Shown here piece by piece: positions 18,057 through 29,071 of a stretch of 33,436 nt of DNA; the stretch's first letter is position 1; each line of letters starts with the position of its first letter. Source of the stretch: Syntrophobacteraceae bacterium (GTDB lineage Bacteria > Desulfobacterota > Syntrophobacteria > Syntrophobacterales > Syntrophobacteraceae); assembly GCA_013314815.1 (NCBI GenBank), contig JABUEY010000034.1:1-33436 (forward strand). The letters run 5' to 3'. A program made the position numbers and the translations under genes. The notes beneath the pieces are model-generated. The model had not been told where the DNA came from. It made no database searches and saw nothing but the letters and a program-made list of their open reading frames with translations.

Positions 18057-18084
18057 TTTACGTTGCGGAAATGCAGTGTAATAA
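18057..18084 (+). promoter_or_regulatory. Candidate promoter of the clostripain-like gene
   Basis: TTTACG (18057-18062) and TAATAA (18079-18084) are separated by 16 bases. Transcription from about 18091 would make a leader of about 168 nt. Confidence 0.35.
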
Positions 18085-18130
18085 TGTGTTATCAAGTGTG
18101 GTGTTTTTTGACTGGAGAGTACGGAGCCAC

Positions 18131-18212
18131 CAGGACGCAACGCCGGTGAGATGGCAGGTGTCCTCAGGCATAATCCCTGAATTGGAGTCCGTGTTGCCTG
18201 GATTCCCCCAGG
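18131..18212 (+). promoter_or_regulatory. Structured leader with alternative hairpins
   Basis: AGGAC (18132-18136) pairs with GTCCT (18160-18164), enclosing GCC/GGC (18142-18144, 18153-18155). CAGGCA (18165-18170) pairs with TGCCTG (18195-18200), whereas CCTGG (18197-18201) can instead pair with CCAGG (18208-18212). The last two stems share bases and exclude each other, as in an attenuator. I do not recognise a known riboswitch class. Confidence 0.3.
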
Positions 18213-18258: not shown

Positions 18259-19455
18259 ATGCTAACGAGAATAAAGACGATCCCAGTTCTTCTGAGTCTT
18301 CTGCTGCTGATTTCGGTTTCGCCTGTGATTCACGGAATCTGCCAAGCCGAAGTGAAAGAATGGACCTTGCTTGTATACCTGAACGGCAACAACGAAGACG
18401 ATGAACTCGTGCCCCTCGTCCTCAATCAACTGGAGCAGGCAGGTACCACCGCCCATATCAATGTCGTCGTCCAGTGGGCCGGTCTTTCGGAAGGCCATGT
18501 CCGGCGTGCACTCGTTGTCAGGGACAGTGATCCACGTATGTTTACCTCGCCGGTGATCGATGATCTGACCGGCACGGACATGGGACATTGGCAGAGTCTG
18601 GTCGAGTTCATCCGGTGGGGTGTGACGAACTATCCCGCAAGACATTATTTCATCGGCATGAAGTGTCCGGCGGCTCCATGGCCCGAGGGACTGAGTGTGG
18701 ACGCCACAACGGGCAGTTCGATGACGTTCCAGGAATTGGGGCAGGCCCTGGACGAAGCATCCCGATTCATCGGCAGGAAGATCGACATCTTCGGAATCGA
18801 TGCGGGCCTCGTTCAGATGATCGAACTTGCCTGCGAACTGGAAGATTCGGTCGAGATACTCGTGGCATCCCAGGACACGGCTCCGGCCGGAGGATGGCCG
18901 TACGAAAGGTTTTTGAACGAGTGGACCAGGAACCCGGGTGCGACTCGACATGCTGTGGCGGGGATGGTGGTCGGCGAATACATCCGGGAAGCGCACAAGC
19001 ACGGCCCCGCGACCCTTTCGGCTCTCGAACTGTGGAAGTTGAGATCCTTCAAAAGGACAATGGGGGAGCTGGTGGAGTCCATGATGAGTGCGGATGCCGA
19101 ACAGCGCGAAATCATTCTCACGGTTGCGGCATCGAGCAGGAGATTCAAAGGCACGAACCAGGCGGATCTCATCGAATTCATCAACAGGCTGGCAATCGGA
19201 GCCATAAAGAATCCGACGATCTTTCAAGGCATGCCTCTTTTCCTGAAAAGGCTGCTTGTAGTCGACTACACCACCCGAAACATGTTCGTTTCCAATGGCA
19301 AGACCCCCCCGGAACACAGGACAAACGGCATTTCCGTCTGGCTGCCCGGAAGCGGGGATGCTTACGAGGCGCATGCTCAGGAATACGAATCTCTAAGATT
19401 TCACAGCGGCACGGGCTGGAACAATCTCCTCAGGCACCTCCTCGATCGCCCGTAA
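18259..19455 (+). CDS. Secreted clostripain-like (peptidase C11) protein lacking catalytic residues
   Basis: A 398-residue protein with a signal peptide (1-30, cut near CQA) and the C11/clostripain fold: KEWTLLVYLNGNNEDDEL (34-50), DIFGIDAGLVQMIEL (176-190) and ASQDTAPAGGWPYERF (203-218), which matches the SEE..PG.GWPY segment of active members. The catalytic pair is missing. The His-Gly expected after the FIGM strand is replaced by KCPA (135-138), and the cysteine of the DACLM motif is glycine (G183). It is therefore probably not a protease but a binding or structural relative in the periplasm. ATG 18259 has GGAGG seven bases upstream. It seems to be a single gene, with promoter, long leader and terminator hairpin. 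Confidence 0.82.
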   Translation: MLTRIKTIPVLLSLLLLISVSPVIHGICQAEVKEWTLLVYLNGNNEDDELVPLVLNQLEQAGTTAHINVVVQWAGLSEGHVRRALVVRDSDPRMFTSPVIDDLTGTDMGHWQSLVEFIRWGVTNYPARHYFIGMKCPAAPWPEGLSVDATTGSSMTFQELGQALDEASRFIGRKIDIFGIDAGLVQMIELACELEDSVEILVASQDTAPAGGWPYERFLNEWTRNPGATRHAVAGMVVGEYIREAHKHGPATLSALELWKLRSFKRTMGELVESMMSADAEQREIILTVAASSRRFKGTNQADLIEFINRLAIGAIKNPTIFQGMPLFLKRLLVVDYTTRNMFVSNGKTPPEHRTNGISVWLPGSGDAYEAHAQEYESLRFHSGTGWNNLLRHLLDRP

Positions 19456-19488
19456 GTAAGGATGGTTCAGTGCAGATGCCAGAACAGG

Positions 19489-19519
19489 GAAAGAGCCGCA
19501 GGATTCCCGCGACTCTTTC
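19489..19519 (+). terminator. Hairpin terminator after the clostripain-like gene
   Basis: GAAAGAG-c-CGC (19489-19499) pairs with GCG-a-CTCTTTC (19509-19519), with one mismatch. A pyrimidine-rich stretch follows. Confidence 0.55.
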
Positions 19520-19583
19520 TCTGCTCTCTGATATGTAAACCCGCCCCTGCTGTCAGCGGCGATGACTCCGGCTTTCACACCGG

Positions 19584-19805
19584 TCAGGAAACGTAGTCCT
19601 CGTTGACATACCGGCCCTCGAGGAGAGTGATCAACTGCTCATCCTCTTCCACTTCCAGTCCTGCATCGACTCCCCAGTCCACGGCAAGCCTGTCGGAGTA
19701 GATATCTCCACCCCCTCCGATCAGGTCTGCATGAGATTCAACATCCAGACCGGTCATCCACAAGGGCCTTCCCTGCTTCCTCAATTCACTGATATTCAGT
19801 TCCAT
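19584..19805 (-). CDS. Small acidic hypothetical protein (73 aa)
   Basis: I do not recognise a family. The 73-residue product is strongly acidic in its second half (VEEDEQLITLLEGRYVNEDY) and has a glycine run LIGGGGDIY in the middle, without signal peptide or membrane segment. ATG 19805 has GAGGGG six bases upstream. Codon choice looks like its neighbours, and no better ORF occupies the stretch. It faces the end of the clostripain-like gene and has no operon partner. Acidic small proteins of this sort may be inhibitors or adaptors, but nothing here shows that. Confidence 0.5.
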   Translation of the reverse strand: MELNISELRKQGRPLWMTGLDVESHADLIGGGGDIYSDRLAVDWGVDAGLEVEEDEQLITLLEGRYVNEDYVS

Positions 19806-24013: not shown

Positions 24014-24040
24014 AGCACCCGGGTGGATATGCCGGGTGCT
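24014..24040 (+). other. Hairpin at the 5-prime end of the lexA transcript
   Basis: AGCACCCGG (24014-24022) pairs with CCGGGTGCT (24032-24040) around a 9-base loop. No U tract follows. It would be at the very start of the lexA message, or may end the EamA transcript. Confidence 0.45.
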
Positions 24041-24077
24041 GCAAGATTACGGTCGAGAACCGAAGGAGTCCAAAGCC

Positions 24078-24698
24078 ATGACACTCACCCCCGCCCAGGA
24101 AAGGGTCTACCGGTTCGTACAGGACTACCTGCAGCGGCACGGGTACTCCCCCAGCTATGAAGAAATACGCCGGCAACTCGGCTTCAGGTCGCTCAACGCT
24201 GTTTTCAAGCACCTGAAGCAACTGGAGGAGCGGGGATATTTACGGAGTCCTCCCAAGAACCGCAAGCGCGCCATTGAACTTCTTCCTCTGCGATCCGGTT
24301 CCATGTCCATTCCCTTCCTTGGAGTCGTCGCTGCCGGAACGCCCATTGAAGCCGTCGAGGTACCCGAATCCATCGAAGTTCCCGAGAGTTTTCTCGGGAA
24401 CGGCAGTAATTTCGCCCTGCGGGTGCGGGGAGATTCGATGGTGGAGGAAGGAATCCGCGAAGGAGATATCCTCATCGTCACGCGGCAGGTCCAGGCCGAA
24501 AACGGGCAGACCGTGGTGGCTCTTGTCCGTGGGGAGGCGACGGTCAAGAAATTCTATCGGAACGGGGATGAAGTGGAACTGAGGCCGGCGAACAGCCGGA
24601 TGCAACCCATCCGGGAGCAGGCCCGGGACGTGGAAATCGTGGGAACGGTGGTGGGACTGCTGCGCAACTACCGGCAGCGCCCTCTCCGTTCACCCTGA
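24078..24698 (+). CDS. lexA: LexA-type SOS repressor
   Basis: A 206-residue LexA with both domains. The N-terminal winged helix-turn-helix (1-70) includes TPAQERVYRFVQDYLQRHGY and SYEEIRRQLGFRS. The self-cleavage site is A86-G87 (VVAAGTP), and the serine-lysine dyad is S120 (RGDSMVEEGI) and K157 (GEATVKKF). RecA-stimulated cleavage should lift repression of its own operon. ATG 24078 follows GAAGGAG by nine bases. It is the first gene of an operon with imuB (42-base gap) and dnaE2 (11-base gap). The recognition helix differs from E. coli LexA, which fits the non-canonical repeats in its promoter. It may be a second, cassette-specific LexA; the rest of the genome would tell. Confidence 0.95.
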   Translation: MTLTPAQERVYRFVQDYLQRHGYSPSYEEIRRQLGFRSLNAVFKHLKQLEERGYLRSPPKNRKRAIELLPLRSGSMSIPFLGVVAAGTPIEAVEVPESIEVPESFLGNGSNFALRVRGDSMVEEGIREGDILIVTRQVQAENGQTVVALVRGEATVKKFYRNGDEVELRPANSRMQPIREQARDVEIVGTVVGLLRNYRQRPLRSP

Positions 24699-24740
24699 AG
24701 TCCATGCCGAGAAGATCCCCGCCCCGGGGGAAGAGGAGCC

Positions 24741-25964
24741 ATGGAACGCAGCATTGTTCATCTGAACATTCCCGATTTTTACACCGGCATGGAAGAGTTA
24801 CGGCGGCCGGAACTGAAGAAGCACCCCCTGGTGCTGGCGGAACCGGCGGTTCGGTCCGTGGTACAGGGAGTAAACGACGCCGCTCGAAGAGAAGGAATCC
24901 GGGAAGGCATGCCTCTCGGCCATGCCCGGCGCATCTGCCGGAGGGCACTGGTTGTTCCTCCCGATCTTCGCTTCTATGGAGAAGTACACCGGAGCATCCT
25001 GCAGGAATTTGCCCGTTTTTCACCCCTCGTGGAAGGGCCCCTTCCCGGCCGGTATTTCGTGGACCTCACGGGAACCCGGCGCCTCTGGGGGCCGGAATCG
25101 GATACGGCCTGGCGCATGGAAAGACTCCTAGCCGACCGAAAGGGGCTGCACGCAAGAGTCGGCCTTGCTTCCAGCAAGCTCGTCAGCCAGGTGGCTGCAG
25201 GCTGTATCACTGCCGGAGATTTGAGCCGCATCTTTCCGGGGGGTGAAACATCCTTTCTGTATCCTCTTCCCGTAAACCTTCTTCCTGGAGTCGGTGCCGT
25301 TACCGCGTCCAGGCTCGCCGACTTCAATATTCAACAGGTCGGCATGCTGGCGTCCATCCCCGCGGAATCCCTTGCCGGCGTTTTCGGGGCGATGAGTACC
25401 CGCCTGCTGCGCATTGCCCGCGGAATCGACCCGACCCCTGTACTTCCCTTCCGGGAAGCCGCCCGTTTGACCCTGGTGCACCATTCGGATCGAGATGAAA
25501 TAGACAGGGAGAAGCTGGAAGCTCTCCTGTTTGTGCAGGTGGAGGAAGCGTGCTGGAACCTGCGGGTTCATAATCGCCGCCCCGGCAGGTTTGCCCTGGA
25601 AATCCGCCACGCCGACGGTGTAACCGCAAAAACCCGGCATCTTCTGCCTGTAAACGCGGTGCATATCGATCAGAGGCTCTTCCGGTTCATGCTTCCCGCA
25701 TTCAGGCGACTGATCGAACGGCGTGTAGCCGTCCGCCGCATTGTGCTGGAATTTTCGGATTTTTCCATCCCCTTTCGGCAGATGCCCCTCTTTCCTTGGG
25801 AAAACGATTCGTTCGAGGAAGACCGGCAGTTGCAGAAGGCCCTGGACGACATCCGGCGGCGTTTCGGAAAGCAGATCATATGCTGGGGGAAAACGGCGGT
25901 CATGCATCGATCTTCGCCCGGGCAGAGAGATCTTCCGAATCGATCCGGCCCGGGGGGGTTCTGA
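24741..25964 (+). CDS. imuB: ImuB-like catalytically inactive Y-family polymerase
   Basis: A 407-residue Y-family protein aligned with DinB over the palm, finger, helix-hairpin-helix (LLPGVGAVTASRLADF, 180-195) and little-finger regions. All three catalytic carboxylates are replaced. DinB D8 corresponds to N9 (IVHLNIPDF), and D103-E104 to G103-R104 (EGPLPGRYFVDLT). It therefore cannot polymerise and fits ImuB, the bridging subunit of the mutasome. A sliding-clamp motif QMPLF lies at 347-351, as in other ImuB proteins. It lies between lexA and dnaE2, the classical damage-inducible cassette. No imuA is present. The ATG is preceded by GAAGAGGAG at rather short spacing. Stop and dnaE2 start are 11 bases apart, so translation is probably coupled. 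Confidence 0.88.
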   Translation: MERSIVHLNIPDFYTGMEELRRPELKKHPLVLAEPAVRSVVQGVNDAARREGIREGMPLGHARRICRRALVVPPDLRFYGEVHRSILQEFARFSPLVEGPLPGRYFVDLTGTRRLWGPESDTAWRMERLLADRKGLHARVGLASSKLVSQVAAGCITAGDLSRIFPGGETSFLYPLPVNLLPGVGAVTASRLADFNIQQVGMLASIPAESLAGVFGAMSTRLLRIARGIDPTPVLPFREAARLTLVHHSDRDEIDREKLEALLFVQVEEACWNLRVHNRRPGRFALEIRHADGVTAKTRHLLPVNAVHIDQRLFRFMLPAFRRLIERRVAVRRIVLEFSDFSIPFRQMPLFPWENDSFEEDRQLQKALDDIRRRFGKQIICWGKTAVMHRSSPGQRDLPNRSGPGGF

Positions 25965-25975
25965 AAGGAAGCGGC

Positions 25976-28900
25976 ATGGAAGAAACCTTCGTTCACCTGC
26001 ACGTGCATTCGCACTATTCCATGATGCGCGGAGCGAGCTCCGTGCAGGCGCTCTGTAAAGCCGCGGTTGAGGCCGGATTCCGGCATCTCGCTCTGACTGA
26101 CACCAACGGCTTCTACGGGCTCGTCAACTTCCTGGAGGCGGCAAAAAATTTCGGCATACGCCCTATTGTGGGTGCGACGGTTGAAACCGAAACGGGAAAA
26201 GCCGTTGTTCTCGCCAGAACGGCCCGCGGCTACGAACTGCTGTCCGACCTGCTCAGCCGGCGCCACCTGGACGAAAATTTTCATCTTGTCCGGGCATTCC
26301 CCGAGGCCCCCGAAGACCTCGCCGTGCTGAGTTCCGATCCCGGCATTGTCAAGGCTCTGCGGTCCCGGGCGGCATGCCGCGTAGAAGTCGTTCCGGGCCC
26401 TTCGGGCCGCAAAGCCCTCCACGTGGCCACCGCCCTGGGAATTCCTCCCGTCGCCACCAATGCCGTCTATTTTGCACACCCGGACGATTATCCCATCCAT
26501 CGCCTGATGCGGGCCATCGATCTCAATCGCACGTTGAGTTCCCTTCCAGCCGAGGAAACCGTTCAGCCCGGCCAGTGGCTGAAGCCGGAGGCGGAGATGG
26601 CCCGGCATTTTCCCAATGCCCCTGAAGCTCTTGCCAACACGGGCAGGCTTGCTGGAGAATGCCTCACGGCCTGGGACCGTTTCTCCACAGTTTTCCCTTC
26701 CTACCGCGACTGCCGCGACGACCACTTCGCCGTCCTTGTCGACCGCTGCCGCCAGGGAATCATCCGGCGCTACGGACGAACCGAACCGGCCATCGAGGAA
26801 CGCCTTGCCGAAGAACTGGACCTCATCCGGTCCAAAGGCTACGTGGACTATTTTCTCGTGGTGGCGGACATCGTGGGAAGCCGCCCGATCCACTGCGGCC
26901 GGGGAAGCGCCGCGGCAAGCCTGGTGAGCTACCTCCTGGGGATCACTCACGTGGACCCCGTCCGTCACCGTCTTCTTTTCGGCAGGTTCCTGAATCCCGA
27001 ACGCAAGGATCACCCGGACATCGACGTAGACTTTCCATGGGACGAACGGGACGATCTGTTCGACGAAGTCCGGCGCTGCCATGGTCCGGAGAGGATGGCC
27101 CTGGTAGCCAACCACACGGGCTTTGCGGCACGGGCGGCGGTGCGGGAGGTGGCCAAAGTCTACGGAATTCCGGCTCCGGAAATCAGGGAGGTGACTCGAA
27201 GGATGAGCTTCTGGACACACCCGGAAGATCTCCGGCATCGCATACAGAACCATCCCAAATTCCGAGGATTCCCCCTCGATCCTCCCTGGCCGGAAATCAT
27301 CGACCTGGCAAGCCGCCTGGAATCCCTGCCCAGGCATCTTTCCACCCATTGCGGGGGAGTCATCCTCGTGCCGGACCGGGTGTCCCGTTATGTGCCCGTG
27401 CAACGCAATGCAAAGGGAGACCTGATTATCCAGTGGGAAAAGGACCAGGCTGAAGCAGCCGGGCTGGTAAAAATCGACCTCCTGGGCAACCGCTCCCTGG
27501 CCGTCATCCGGGATACCCTGGCAGCCATAGAAGAAAACACGGGAAAGGCGCCGGATTACGCCGCCCTGAACCCCGTCGACGACTCCGCCACGCAGGACCT
27601 GCTCAGGCGGGGAGATTCCATGGGGGTCTTTTACGTGGAATCTCCAGCCATGAGGCAGCTTCAGCAGAAAACACGGCGCGGCGATTTCGAACACCTCGTC
27701 ATTCATTCCTCCATCATCCGGCCCGCCGCCAACCGATACATTCGCGAATACATCCGGCGCCTGCATGGAGCGCCTTACGAGCCGCTCCATCCGAGCATCG
27801 CGGATCTCCTGGCGGAAACCTACGGCATCCTGGTTTACCAGGAAGACGTGGTACAGGCGGCCATGATCCTGGCCGGGTTCAGCTGGGGGGAGGCGGACAG
27901 GTTAAGAAAAGTGATCAGCAGGAAAAGCCGGGAACAGCTGTCCCAATTCCGCCTCCGCTTTTCCGACGGCTGCGCCGGGCGGGGCATACCTCGAAAGGTA
28001 GTGGACGCCATCTGGGAAATGTTCACCTCCTTTTCCGGGTATTCCTTCTGCAAGCCGCACTCCGCGTCCTACGCCCTTGTCAGCTTCAAATCGGCCTATC
28101 TCAAGGTTCACCACCCCGCTGAATTCATGGCGGCGGTGTTGAGCAACGGCGGAGGTTATTACAGCACGTTCGCCTATATTTCCGAAGCCCGCCGCATGGG
28201 CATAACCGTGCTGGGGCCGGATGTGAACGAAAGCCGTTGGAATTACCGGGGGAAAGGGGAAACCATTCGAATGGGACTGCAGCAGATCCGGGGAATCCAC
28301 CGGGACACGATCGATGCTCTGCTGGAGGAACGAAGCCGGAACGGCCCCTTCGTTTCCATCGACGACATCCTCGATCGGCTGAACATTCCTGCGTCGGACG
28401 CCGCTATCCTCGCAAGAAGCGGTGCGATGGATTCCCTTGCAGGAAATCTAAACCGCCCCCAGCTCCTGTGGTTTCTGGAATCACGCCTGAGGGGCGGTCC
28501 GTTTTCCCGGAATGAAGCGAGGACGGCACAAAGAATCCTTTTCCCCCGATCCCGCATGCCGTTTGACGTCCCTCCCCTGCCGGACCTGGCTTCCCACCAG
28601 AAATGGCGGCAGGAAGTGGACACCCTGGGCTTCGTGTTGTCCGTTCATCCTTTGACGGCGATCGAACCGTCCCTGCGAAAACTCCGCTGCCCCATCGTGC
28701 CCGCTTCGGACCTGGCACGGCACGTGGGGCGGAGGATCCGTGTACTGGGCTGGCCCATTACGCGCAAGGAAGTGTTCACCAGGGAGGGGGAATCCATGGA
28801 ATTCGTTTCCTTCGAAGACCGGACGGCCATTTACGAGTCGGTTTTTTTCCCTGGAGTCTTCCGGCGCTTCTGCCAGGACCTGGACATGAATCGAGCGTAC

Positions 28901-29071
28901 CTGCTGCTTGGAGATGTGGAGAGTGAGTTCGGTACGGTGAGCCTGACCGTGCGGCAGCTGACCAGGATAAACGAACGGCCGGGCGGTATCAGCAGTGGAC
29001 CGCCAGCCAGACGGTCTTCCCGTTCGGATCCGTCCATTCCACTCTGTGCTTCCGATGGGCGGGGATGTTGA
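25976..29071 (+). CDS. dnaE2: Error-prone DNA polymerase DnaE2 (ImuC)
   Basis: A 1031-residue C-family polymerase of the DnaE2/ImuC class, which does error-prone synthesis past lesions. Domains in order: PHP (VHLHVHSHYSMM, 6-17), palm with GRGSAAASLVSYLLGI and the catalytic PDIDVDF near 347-353, third aspartate in KIDLLGN near 499-505, fingers (RLRKVISRKSREQ; FCKPHSASYALVSFKSAYLK), helix-hairpin-helix (GLQQIRGI), and a C-terminal OB fold (RRIRVLGWPITRKEVFTREG). The length is typical for DnaE2, shorter than replicative DnaE. ATG 25976 follows AAAGGAAG and sits 11 bases after imuB. The last 27 codons (28989-29071) overlap the convergent cupin gene; the tail there (PPARRSSRSDPSIPLC) is not family-like. 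Activity should depend on ImuB for access to the clamp. Confidence 0.95.
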   Translation: MEETFVHLHVHSHYSMMRGASSVQALCKAAVEAGFRHLALTDTNGFYGLVNFLEAAKNFGIRPIVGATVETETGKAVVLARTARGYELLSDLLSRRHLDENFHLVRAFPEAPEDLAVLSSDPGIVKALRSRAACRVEVVPGPSGRKALHVATALGIPPVATNAVYFAHPDDYPIHRLMRAIDLNRTLSSLPAEETVQPGQWLKPEAEMARHFPNAPEALANTGRLAGECLTAWDRFSTVFPSYRDCRDDHFAVLVDRCRQGIIRRYGRTEPAIEERLAEELDLIRSKGYVDYFLVVADIVGSRPIHCGRGSAAASLVSYLLGITHVDPVRHRLLFGRFLNPERKDHPDIDVDFPWDERDDLFDEVRRCHGPERMALVANHTGFAARAAVREVAKVYGIPAPEIREVTRRMSFWTHPEDLRHRIQNHPKFRGFPLDPPWPEIIDLASRLESLPRHLSTHCGGVILVPDRVSRYVPVQRNAKGDLIIQWEKDQAEAAGLVKIDLLGNRSLAVIRDTLAAIEENTGKAPDYAALNPVDDSATQDLLRRGDSMGVFYVESPAMRQLQQKTRRGDFEHLVIHSSIIRPAANRYIREYIRRLHGAPYEPLHPSIADLLAETYGILVYQEDVVQAAMILAGFSWGEADRLRKVISRKSREQLSQFRLRFSDGCAGRGIPRKVVDAIWEMFTSFSGYSFCKPHSASYALVSFKSAYLKVHHPAEFMAAVLSNGGGYYSTFAYISEARRMGITVLGPDVNESRWNYRGKGETIRMGLQQIRGIHRDTIDALLEERSRNGPFVSIDDILDRLNIPASDAAILARSGAMDSLAGNLNRPQLLWFLESRLRGGPFSRNEARTAQRILFPRSRMPFDVPPLPDLASHQKWRQEVDTLGFVLSVHPLTAIEPSLRKLRCPIVPASDLARHVGRRIRVLGWPITRKEVFTREGESMEFVSFEDRTAIYESVFFPGVFRRFCQDLDMNRAYLLLGDVESEFGTVSLTVRQLTRINERPGGISSGPPARRSSRSDPSIPLCASDGRGC

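Follow-up and report, generated by a model that had tools for sequence, protein, structure and literature searches.

The window, the whole stretch of 33,436 nucleotides of DNA that we analysed, comes from a draft genome of 245 contigs (97.7% complete, 2.3% contamination). It carries on the forward strand an open reading frame of 398 amino acids that starts with ATG and contains no internal stop (18259-19455). The product matches the Pfam family PF03415 (Peptidase_C11) over its full length, with an E value of 3.9e-24 and 86.3 bits against a cut-off of 25.8. This is the sole Pfam family matched at E values up to 1, and the C14 p20 domain of the pseudo-orthocaspases (C14B) was not found at that limit. 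The gene is also the only C11 match in the genome, in which no second copy was found. The N terminus has Lys or Arg near the start and, as read by eye, a possible AxA-like site at the CQA/EV junction. The coordinates of the gene and of the features discussed below are given in Table 1.

Table 1. Features of the C11 locus, with positions in the window and residue numbers of the window protein.
Feature	Position	Strand	Basis
Promoter-like site TTTACG-17-AATAAT, weak (9/12)	18057..18085	+	Sigma-70-like match
Pseudo-C11 (clostripain-fold) protein, apparently secreted, 398 aa	18259..19455	+	Pfam, alignment, model, fold comparison
Probable signal peptide, residues 1-31 (hydrophobic run 7-21)	18259..18351	+	Sequence by eye, hydropathy
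Former catalytic-His motif, residues 135-141 KCPAAPW, C136 preceding P137	18661..18681	+	Alignment
Shortened zymogen-linker (activation) loop, residues 142-147 PEGLSV	18682..18699	+	Alignment with 67 relatives; literature
Former catalytic-Cys motif, residues 181-185 DAGLV, D181 kept	18799..18813	+	Alignment, literature
S1-side loop, residues 202-215 VASQDTAPAGGWPY; S204, P209, G212, W213, P214, Y215 kept; E208 to A	18862..18903	+	Alignment
Terminator-like hairpin separating the C11 gene from the convergent 73-aa ORF	19481..19527	+	z -2.5/-5.4 on the two strands

An acetolactate decarboxylase gene lies upstream of the C11 gene on the opposite strand, and downstream a 73-aa reading frame without any Pfam match (19584-19805, reverse strand) converges with it. 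No functional partner is suggested among the neighbours within the window, and the gene stands alone. A preliminary description of the locus had given the gene its own promoter and a terminator, and each of these holds in part. Four promoter-like sites were found, against a mean of 1.0 (SD 1.2) in shuffles, but the sigma-70-like matches, the tabulated one and a second at 18146-18174, are weak, at 9 of 12 positions. The hairpin past the gene is strong, with arms of 23 nucleotides each (19481-19503 and 19505-19527), but it has no T-run and for that reason was not listed by the terminator scan. An antisense reading frame of 370 amino acids (18262-19374, reverse strand) spans nearly the whole C11 gene and is probably a by-product of codon usage.

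When the protein is aligned with 12 homologues of its phylum, the column of the catalytic His is occupied by Pro137 and that of the catalytic Cys by Gly183. Where the relatives read W-N/D-H-G, the window protein has Lys135-Cys136-Pro137-Ala138, and DAGLV stands in place of DACLM. The preliminary description had placed KCPA at the His position and DAGLV at the Cys, which is correct when the His column itself is read as the Pro. In PmC11 the catalytic residues are His133 and Cys179 and the S1 residue is Asp177 (PMC4850288); these align with Pro137, Gly183, and Asp181, respectively. A compensated frameshift was considered as the origin of KCPAAP and rejected, as the other two frames, read by eye, contained no HG motif.

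It had also been asked whether Cys and His are absent in all orthologues; nearly all of the relatives read keep them. We took a census of 212 distinct homologue ORFs, defined as ORFs of at least 100 codons matching a profile built from the collected homologue set. Both residues were kept in 206, one had His and Ser (L028), and five, consisting of four gapped rows and one with X, were unreadable at one or both columns. Among all homologue ORFs read, the window protein alone had both His and Cys replaced, and in the 67 closest rows (at least 155 bits) columns 137 and 183 were H and C at a frequency of 1.00. Because H and C stand at these columns in so many of the homologues, the replacement of the dyad is more than chance. 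The census should be read with its sampling in mind: loci from genome_contigs were found by a pattern demanding Cys or Gly at the catalytic position and are biased towards Cys, whereas the whole-genome searches used the window protein as the query and are free of that bias. It includes loci from the phylum of G436 and the class of G336, and leaves out many weaker matches of the search through the Bdellovibrionota phylum and some from other whole-genome searches. Loci from the order of the best match were retrieved after the census, although their places were already known from the Bdellovibrionota-phylum search.

The loss extends to the zymogen linker. Between Trp141 and Asp148 the window protein has six residues and no Lys or Arg, while the interval in the 67 relatives is 7-31 residues long (median 17) and contains Lys or Arg in 63 of them; the feature is not absolute, as the other four lack these residues and still keep the dyad. 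PmC11 cleaves itself at Lys147, 14 residues past its His (PMC4850288), and the linker of clostripain is described as removable, reportedly electropositive and gating the substrate pocket (PMC11296011). The joint loss of gate and dyad is what would be expected of a protein without need of zymogen control.

The 67 closest relatives define 67 columns with at least 90% conservation, 49 of which are kept and 18 changed in the window protein. Eight of the changes are in the His and Cys loops (W135, H137, G138, G140, D144, I145, C183, and M185); outside them, the S1 loop has lost G203 and E208, the loop past the first strand has lost L47, and seven more changes lie elsewhere. The retained columns include D181, A182, S146, D148, W141, S204, P209, G212, W213, P214, and Y215 together with the core, and VASQDTAPAGGWPYERF occupies residues 202-218. 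The P1-specificity Asp is thus present: D181 is invariant in the 67 relatives and corresponds to the P1 determinant of PmC11 (Asp177) and clostripain (Asp229) (PMC4850288, PMC11296011). Glu208, by contrast, has become Ala; this column is 96% conserved and aligns with a pocket residue of PmC11. The proportion of conserved columns changed was 8/15 (53%) in the His and Cys loops vs. 10/52 elsewhere (Fisher P = 0.013), with the loops defined after the changed columns had been seen, and became 6/13 vs. 10/52 (P = 0.053) when the dyad columns were removed. This clustering should be regarded as suggestive rather than strong. For comparison, L041, a row with the dyad intact and a branch of equal length, has changed 3/15 of the loop columns and 8/52 of the others.

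The preliminary description regarded the C11 fold motifs as intact and proposed a structure prediction as a check, and this recovered the clostripain fold. The AlphaFold2 model of the window protein has a mean pLDDT of 90.6 and a pTM of 0.89; as the alignment given to AlphaFold consisted of relatives that keep the dyad, these values indicate that the sequence is compatible with the fold and are not proof of folding. VIA-align placed the predicted model on clostripain (9cip_B) with Z 39.4 and an rmsd of 2.2 over 346 residues, and on three further full-length secreted C11 structures with Z 34-36; Foldseek concurs. The predicted model has the clan CD alpha/beta/alpha fold of the C11 structures. 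No solved structure was close in sequence, the best phmmer E value being 0.055.

The closest relatives found for the window protein come from outside its own phylum. In the class of the window genome, C11 matches occurred in 4 of 55 genomes, its own included, the best of the others having 28% identity and 75 bits; in its phylum, 46 of 395 sampled genomes matched, the best other at 31% identity and 89 bits. The Bdellovibrionota phylum (that of G439) gave matches in 99 of 290 genomes, about 60 of them at 160-270 bits and with at most 42% identity, and in the order of the best match 35 of 55 genomes had matches at E values up to 1e-50, none nearer than the 42% relative. In the phylum of G436, a record named Elusimicrobia, 7 of 247 genomes matched with E values of 1e-40 or below (top score 182 bits), and in the class of G336, 7 of 42 matched with E values of 1e-20 or below (top score about 90 bits). 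Searches by eight-residue patterns found no close orthologue, with no hit encoding a relative in genome_contigs or viral_contigs, and phages gave zero matches to C11 relatives. Plasmids gave 56 matching records, kept outside the catalytic-residue census, all below 60% identity and the best with an E value of 1e-15 at 26%. The nearest relatives are therefore single-domain C11 proteins of the Bdellovibrionota kind, and the window genome belongs to another phylum. Two genomes, G571 and G551, have two copies of this type, in tandem in G571 (C3:91655-92818 and 93028-94188).

In the tree, the window protein groups with these single-domain Bdellovibrionota-type proteins with support of 100/94, on a branch of 1.8 changes per column compared with a median end branch of 0.42. 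Nesting inside the active subfamily is not secure: when the other 66 rows are forced into one group, the log-likelihood falls by 7.8 units (p-AU 0.25), and the window protein may be their sister instead. By parsimony, descent from an active ancestor would follow in either case. That the gene moved between phyla is the likeliest explanation, the direction not being proven. The contig itself looks native to the window genome. Segments of 9-13 kb of the window have tetranucleotide correlations of 0.95-0.97 with the remaining contigs; a piece made up of the C11 gene and about 3 kb of flank per side reaches 0.93, where the genome's own contigs give 0.92-0.98 and five Bdellovibrionota stretches 0.51-0.86. 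The neighbouring acetolactate decarboxylase has relatives with 53-58% identity within the same family as the window genome.

A gene that has lost its active site may be maintained or may be on its way out. The codon usage of the C11 gene (0.108) lies within the range of 16 window genes (0.057-0.170), and its GC content by codon position is like that of its neighbours. In simulations of neutral point mutation, 3.7% of the runs remained free of stops at 0.1 mutations per site, with 20% of residues changed; at 0.2, 0.3, and 0.5 mutations per site, where at least 35% of residues were changed, 0 of 300 runs did at each rate. Judged by these sequence features, the window protein is very probably both maintained and proteolytically inactive. 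The claim of a maintained, noncatalytic secreted member is supported by the fold, a frame still open despite long divergence, the host-like codons, and the coordinated loss of the catalytic parts. The possibility of a recent dead allele, raised in the same description, fares differently: relatives do keep Cys and His, but the closest is only 42% identical, too distant for the window protein to be a newly dead allele of an enzyme nearly identical to it. Across everything searched the window protein appears as a singleton, its dead state lacking independent conservation, and the long branch of 1.8 fits a general relaxation too.

One rival is a horizontally acquired gene in decay, its active site lost first and its frame still unbroken. 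The branch length, the orthologues not found, the change of 10 of the 52 conserved columns that lie in neither the His nor the Cys loop, and a gene alien to the phylum would all agree with decay. We nevertheless consider it improbable, given a confident full-length predicted fold, the 42 of those 52 columns that are kept, and a run of 398 stop-free codons with host-like usage and a flanking hairpin.

The explanation that we favour, and regard as the probable one, is a fixed secreted pseudoenzyme, i.e., a maintained inactive protein that would act by binding of some kind. Its ancestor would have belonged to the active single-domain C11 subfamily that characterises Bdellovibrionota, or to a neighbouring branch, and would have been transferred into the lineage of the window genome. 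There, constraint on the catalytic and self-activation machinery would have been lost while the fold stayed under selection. Once exported, the protein would use the former substrate groove to bind a peptide or another protein outside the cytoplasm. Active C11 zymogens have this groove covered by a basic linker; with the linker nearly absent, the groove of the window protein would be open from the start, and after binding no cleavage would be possible, with Asp181 still at the groove base. The role that we infer is that of a peptide binder or a scaffold. That the former groove is the binding site is a tentative reading of the aligned residues: peptide binding agrees with the retention of Asp181 and the loss of the gate loop, but without E208 the groove may be unable to bind basic side chains, which counts somewhat against it. 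Surfaces other than the groove may be in use. The narrowest version, a permanently open peptide receptor in which dyad and zymogen gate were lost together and the Asp that reads Arg or Lys was kept, is rather doubtful; if true, the protein would trap basic peptides or protein tails beyond the cytoplasm and leave them uncut.

Binding could alternatively be directed at proteases. A regulator or decoy that holds active proteases, substrates, or inhibitors, of its own cell or of neighbours, would resemble the pseudo-caspase c-FLIP-L. It has a precedent in clan CD, where cFLIP-L pairs with caspase-8 (PMC6426788), and the fold is retained in the predicted model. The genome, however, offers no active C11 partner, so that the partner would have to be another protein or that of another cell, and we give the decoy only a small chance. 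Far less probable is a re-invented hydrolase with a migrated active site, built on the gained Cys136 and His110 or on other residues. Cys136 adjoins the old His position, replacing the N, D, or S of the 67 relatives, and His110 replaces a D found in 55 of them; residue 110 precedes the helix descending to strand 127-135 and, as inferred from this, may lie at the edge of the active site. However, the His loop has also lost its turns at G138 and G140, and a pair of the C136/H110 type is found in zero relatives. An assembly or binning artefact, either sequencing errors in the motifs or a foreign contig, could be suspected from a contaminated draft and a gene alien to the phylum, but at least eight loop columns and a short loop within an open frame cannot be errors, and the matching tetranucleotides and the same-family relatives of the acetolactate decarboxylase leave this the least credible explanation.

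A fixed pseudoenzyme would be ordinary in kind, as pseudoenzymes are common, and unusual in the C11 family. The single-domain Bdellovibrionota-kind proteins (e.g., L138, L118, and L119; about 60 genomes) resemble the window protein in length, likely secretion, and single domain, and have 33-42% identity to it with a common conserved core. Unlike the window protein, they have His and Cys in place, retain Glu208 in most cases, and carry a linker that is longer and in most of them basic. Clostripain (9cip) and PmC11 (3uws) share with it the clan CD fold and the P1-specificity Asp, but both are active enzymes that are specific for Arg/Lys, have the His/Cys dyad, and process themselves at the linker, whereas the window protein has neither the dyad nor a self-processed linker. 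We found no published dead C11 protein in the open-access literature. Dead members are documented in a neighbouring clan CD family, the orthocaspases: pseudo-orthocaspases of Cyanobacteria and Alphaproteobacteria lack the His-Cys dyad but retain the fold along with an acidic specificity pocket, and in most unicellular Cyanobacteria the pseudo-orthocaspase is the sole orthocaspase of the genome (PMC6426788), just as the window protein is the sole C11 member of its genome. As bacterial clan CD proteins without the dyad, these are a close parallel. They differ in being of family C14B and widespread, with HC to YS the commonest replacement, while the window protein is a C11 singleton with HC to PG and a short linker loop. 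A C11 protein that lost dyad and gate in one lineage offers a natural way to tell the parts of the fold kept for catalysis from those kept for binding.

The one other altered homologue, L028 (G175; an ORF from 1444 on the forward strand), comes from the same phylum. Its Cys is replaced by Ser (DASIM), as the Cys of the window protein is lost, but its catalytic His is kept, and with about 22% identity to the window protein it represents a separate lineage. Going by these residues, it is possibly an enzyme with a Ser nucleophile or a second dead or altered C11 lineage.

Elsewhere in the window, genes for a LexA-like repressor, an IMS/ImuB-type polymerase, and a DnaE-type polymerase follow each other (24036-29071, forward strand), a trio that we take to resemble a mutagenic repair cassette. 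Two homologues of the window's ADP-ribosylglycohydrolase, L217 and L219 (in G023 and G024), each have one in-frame TGA inside the match, possibly a selenocysteine, a frameshift, or an end-of-gene effect.
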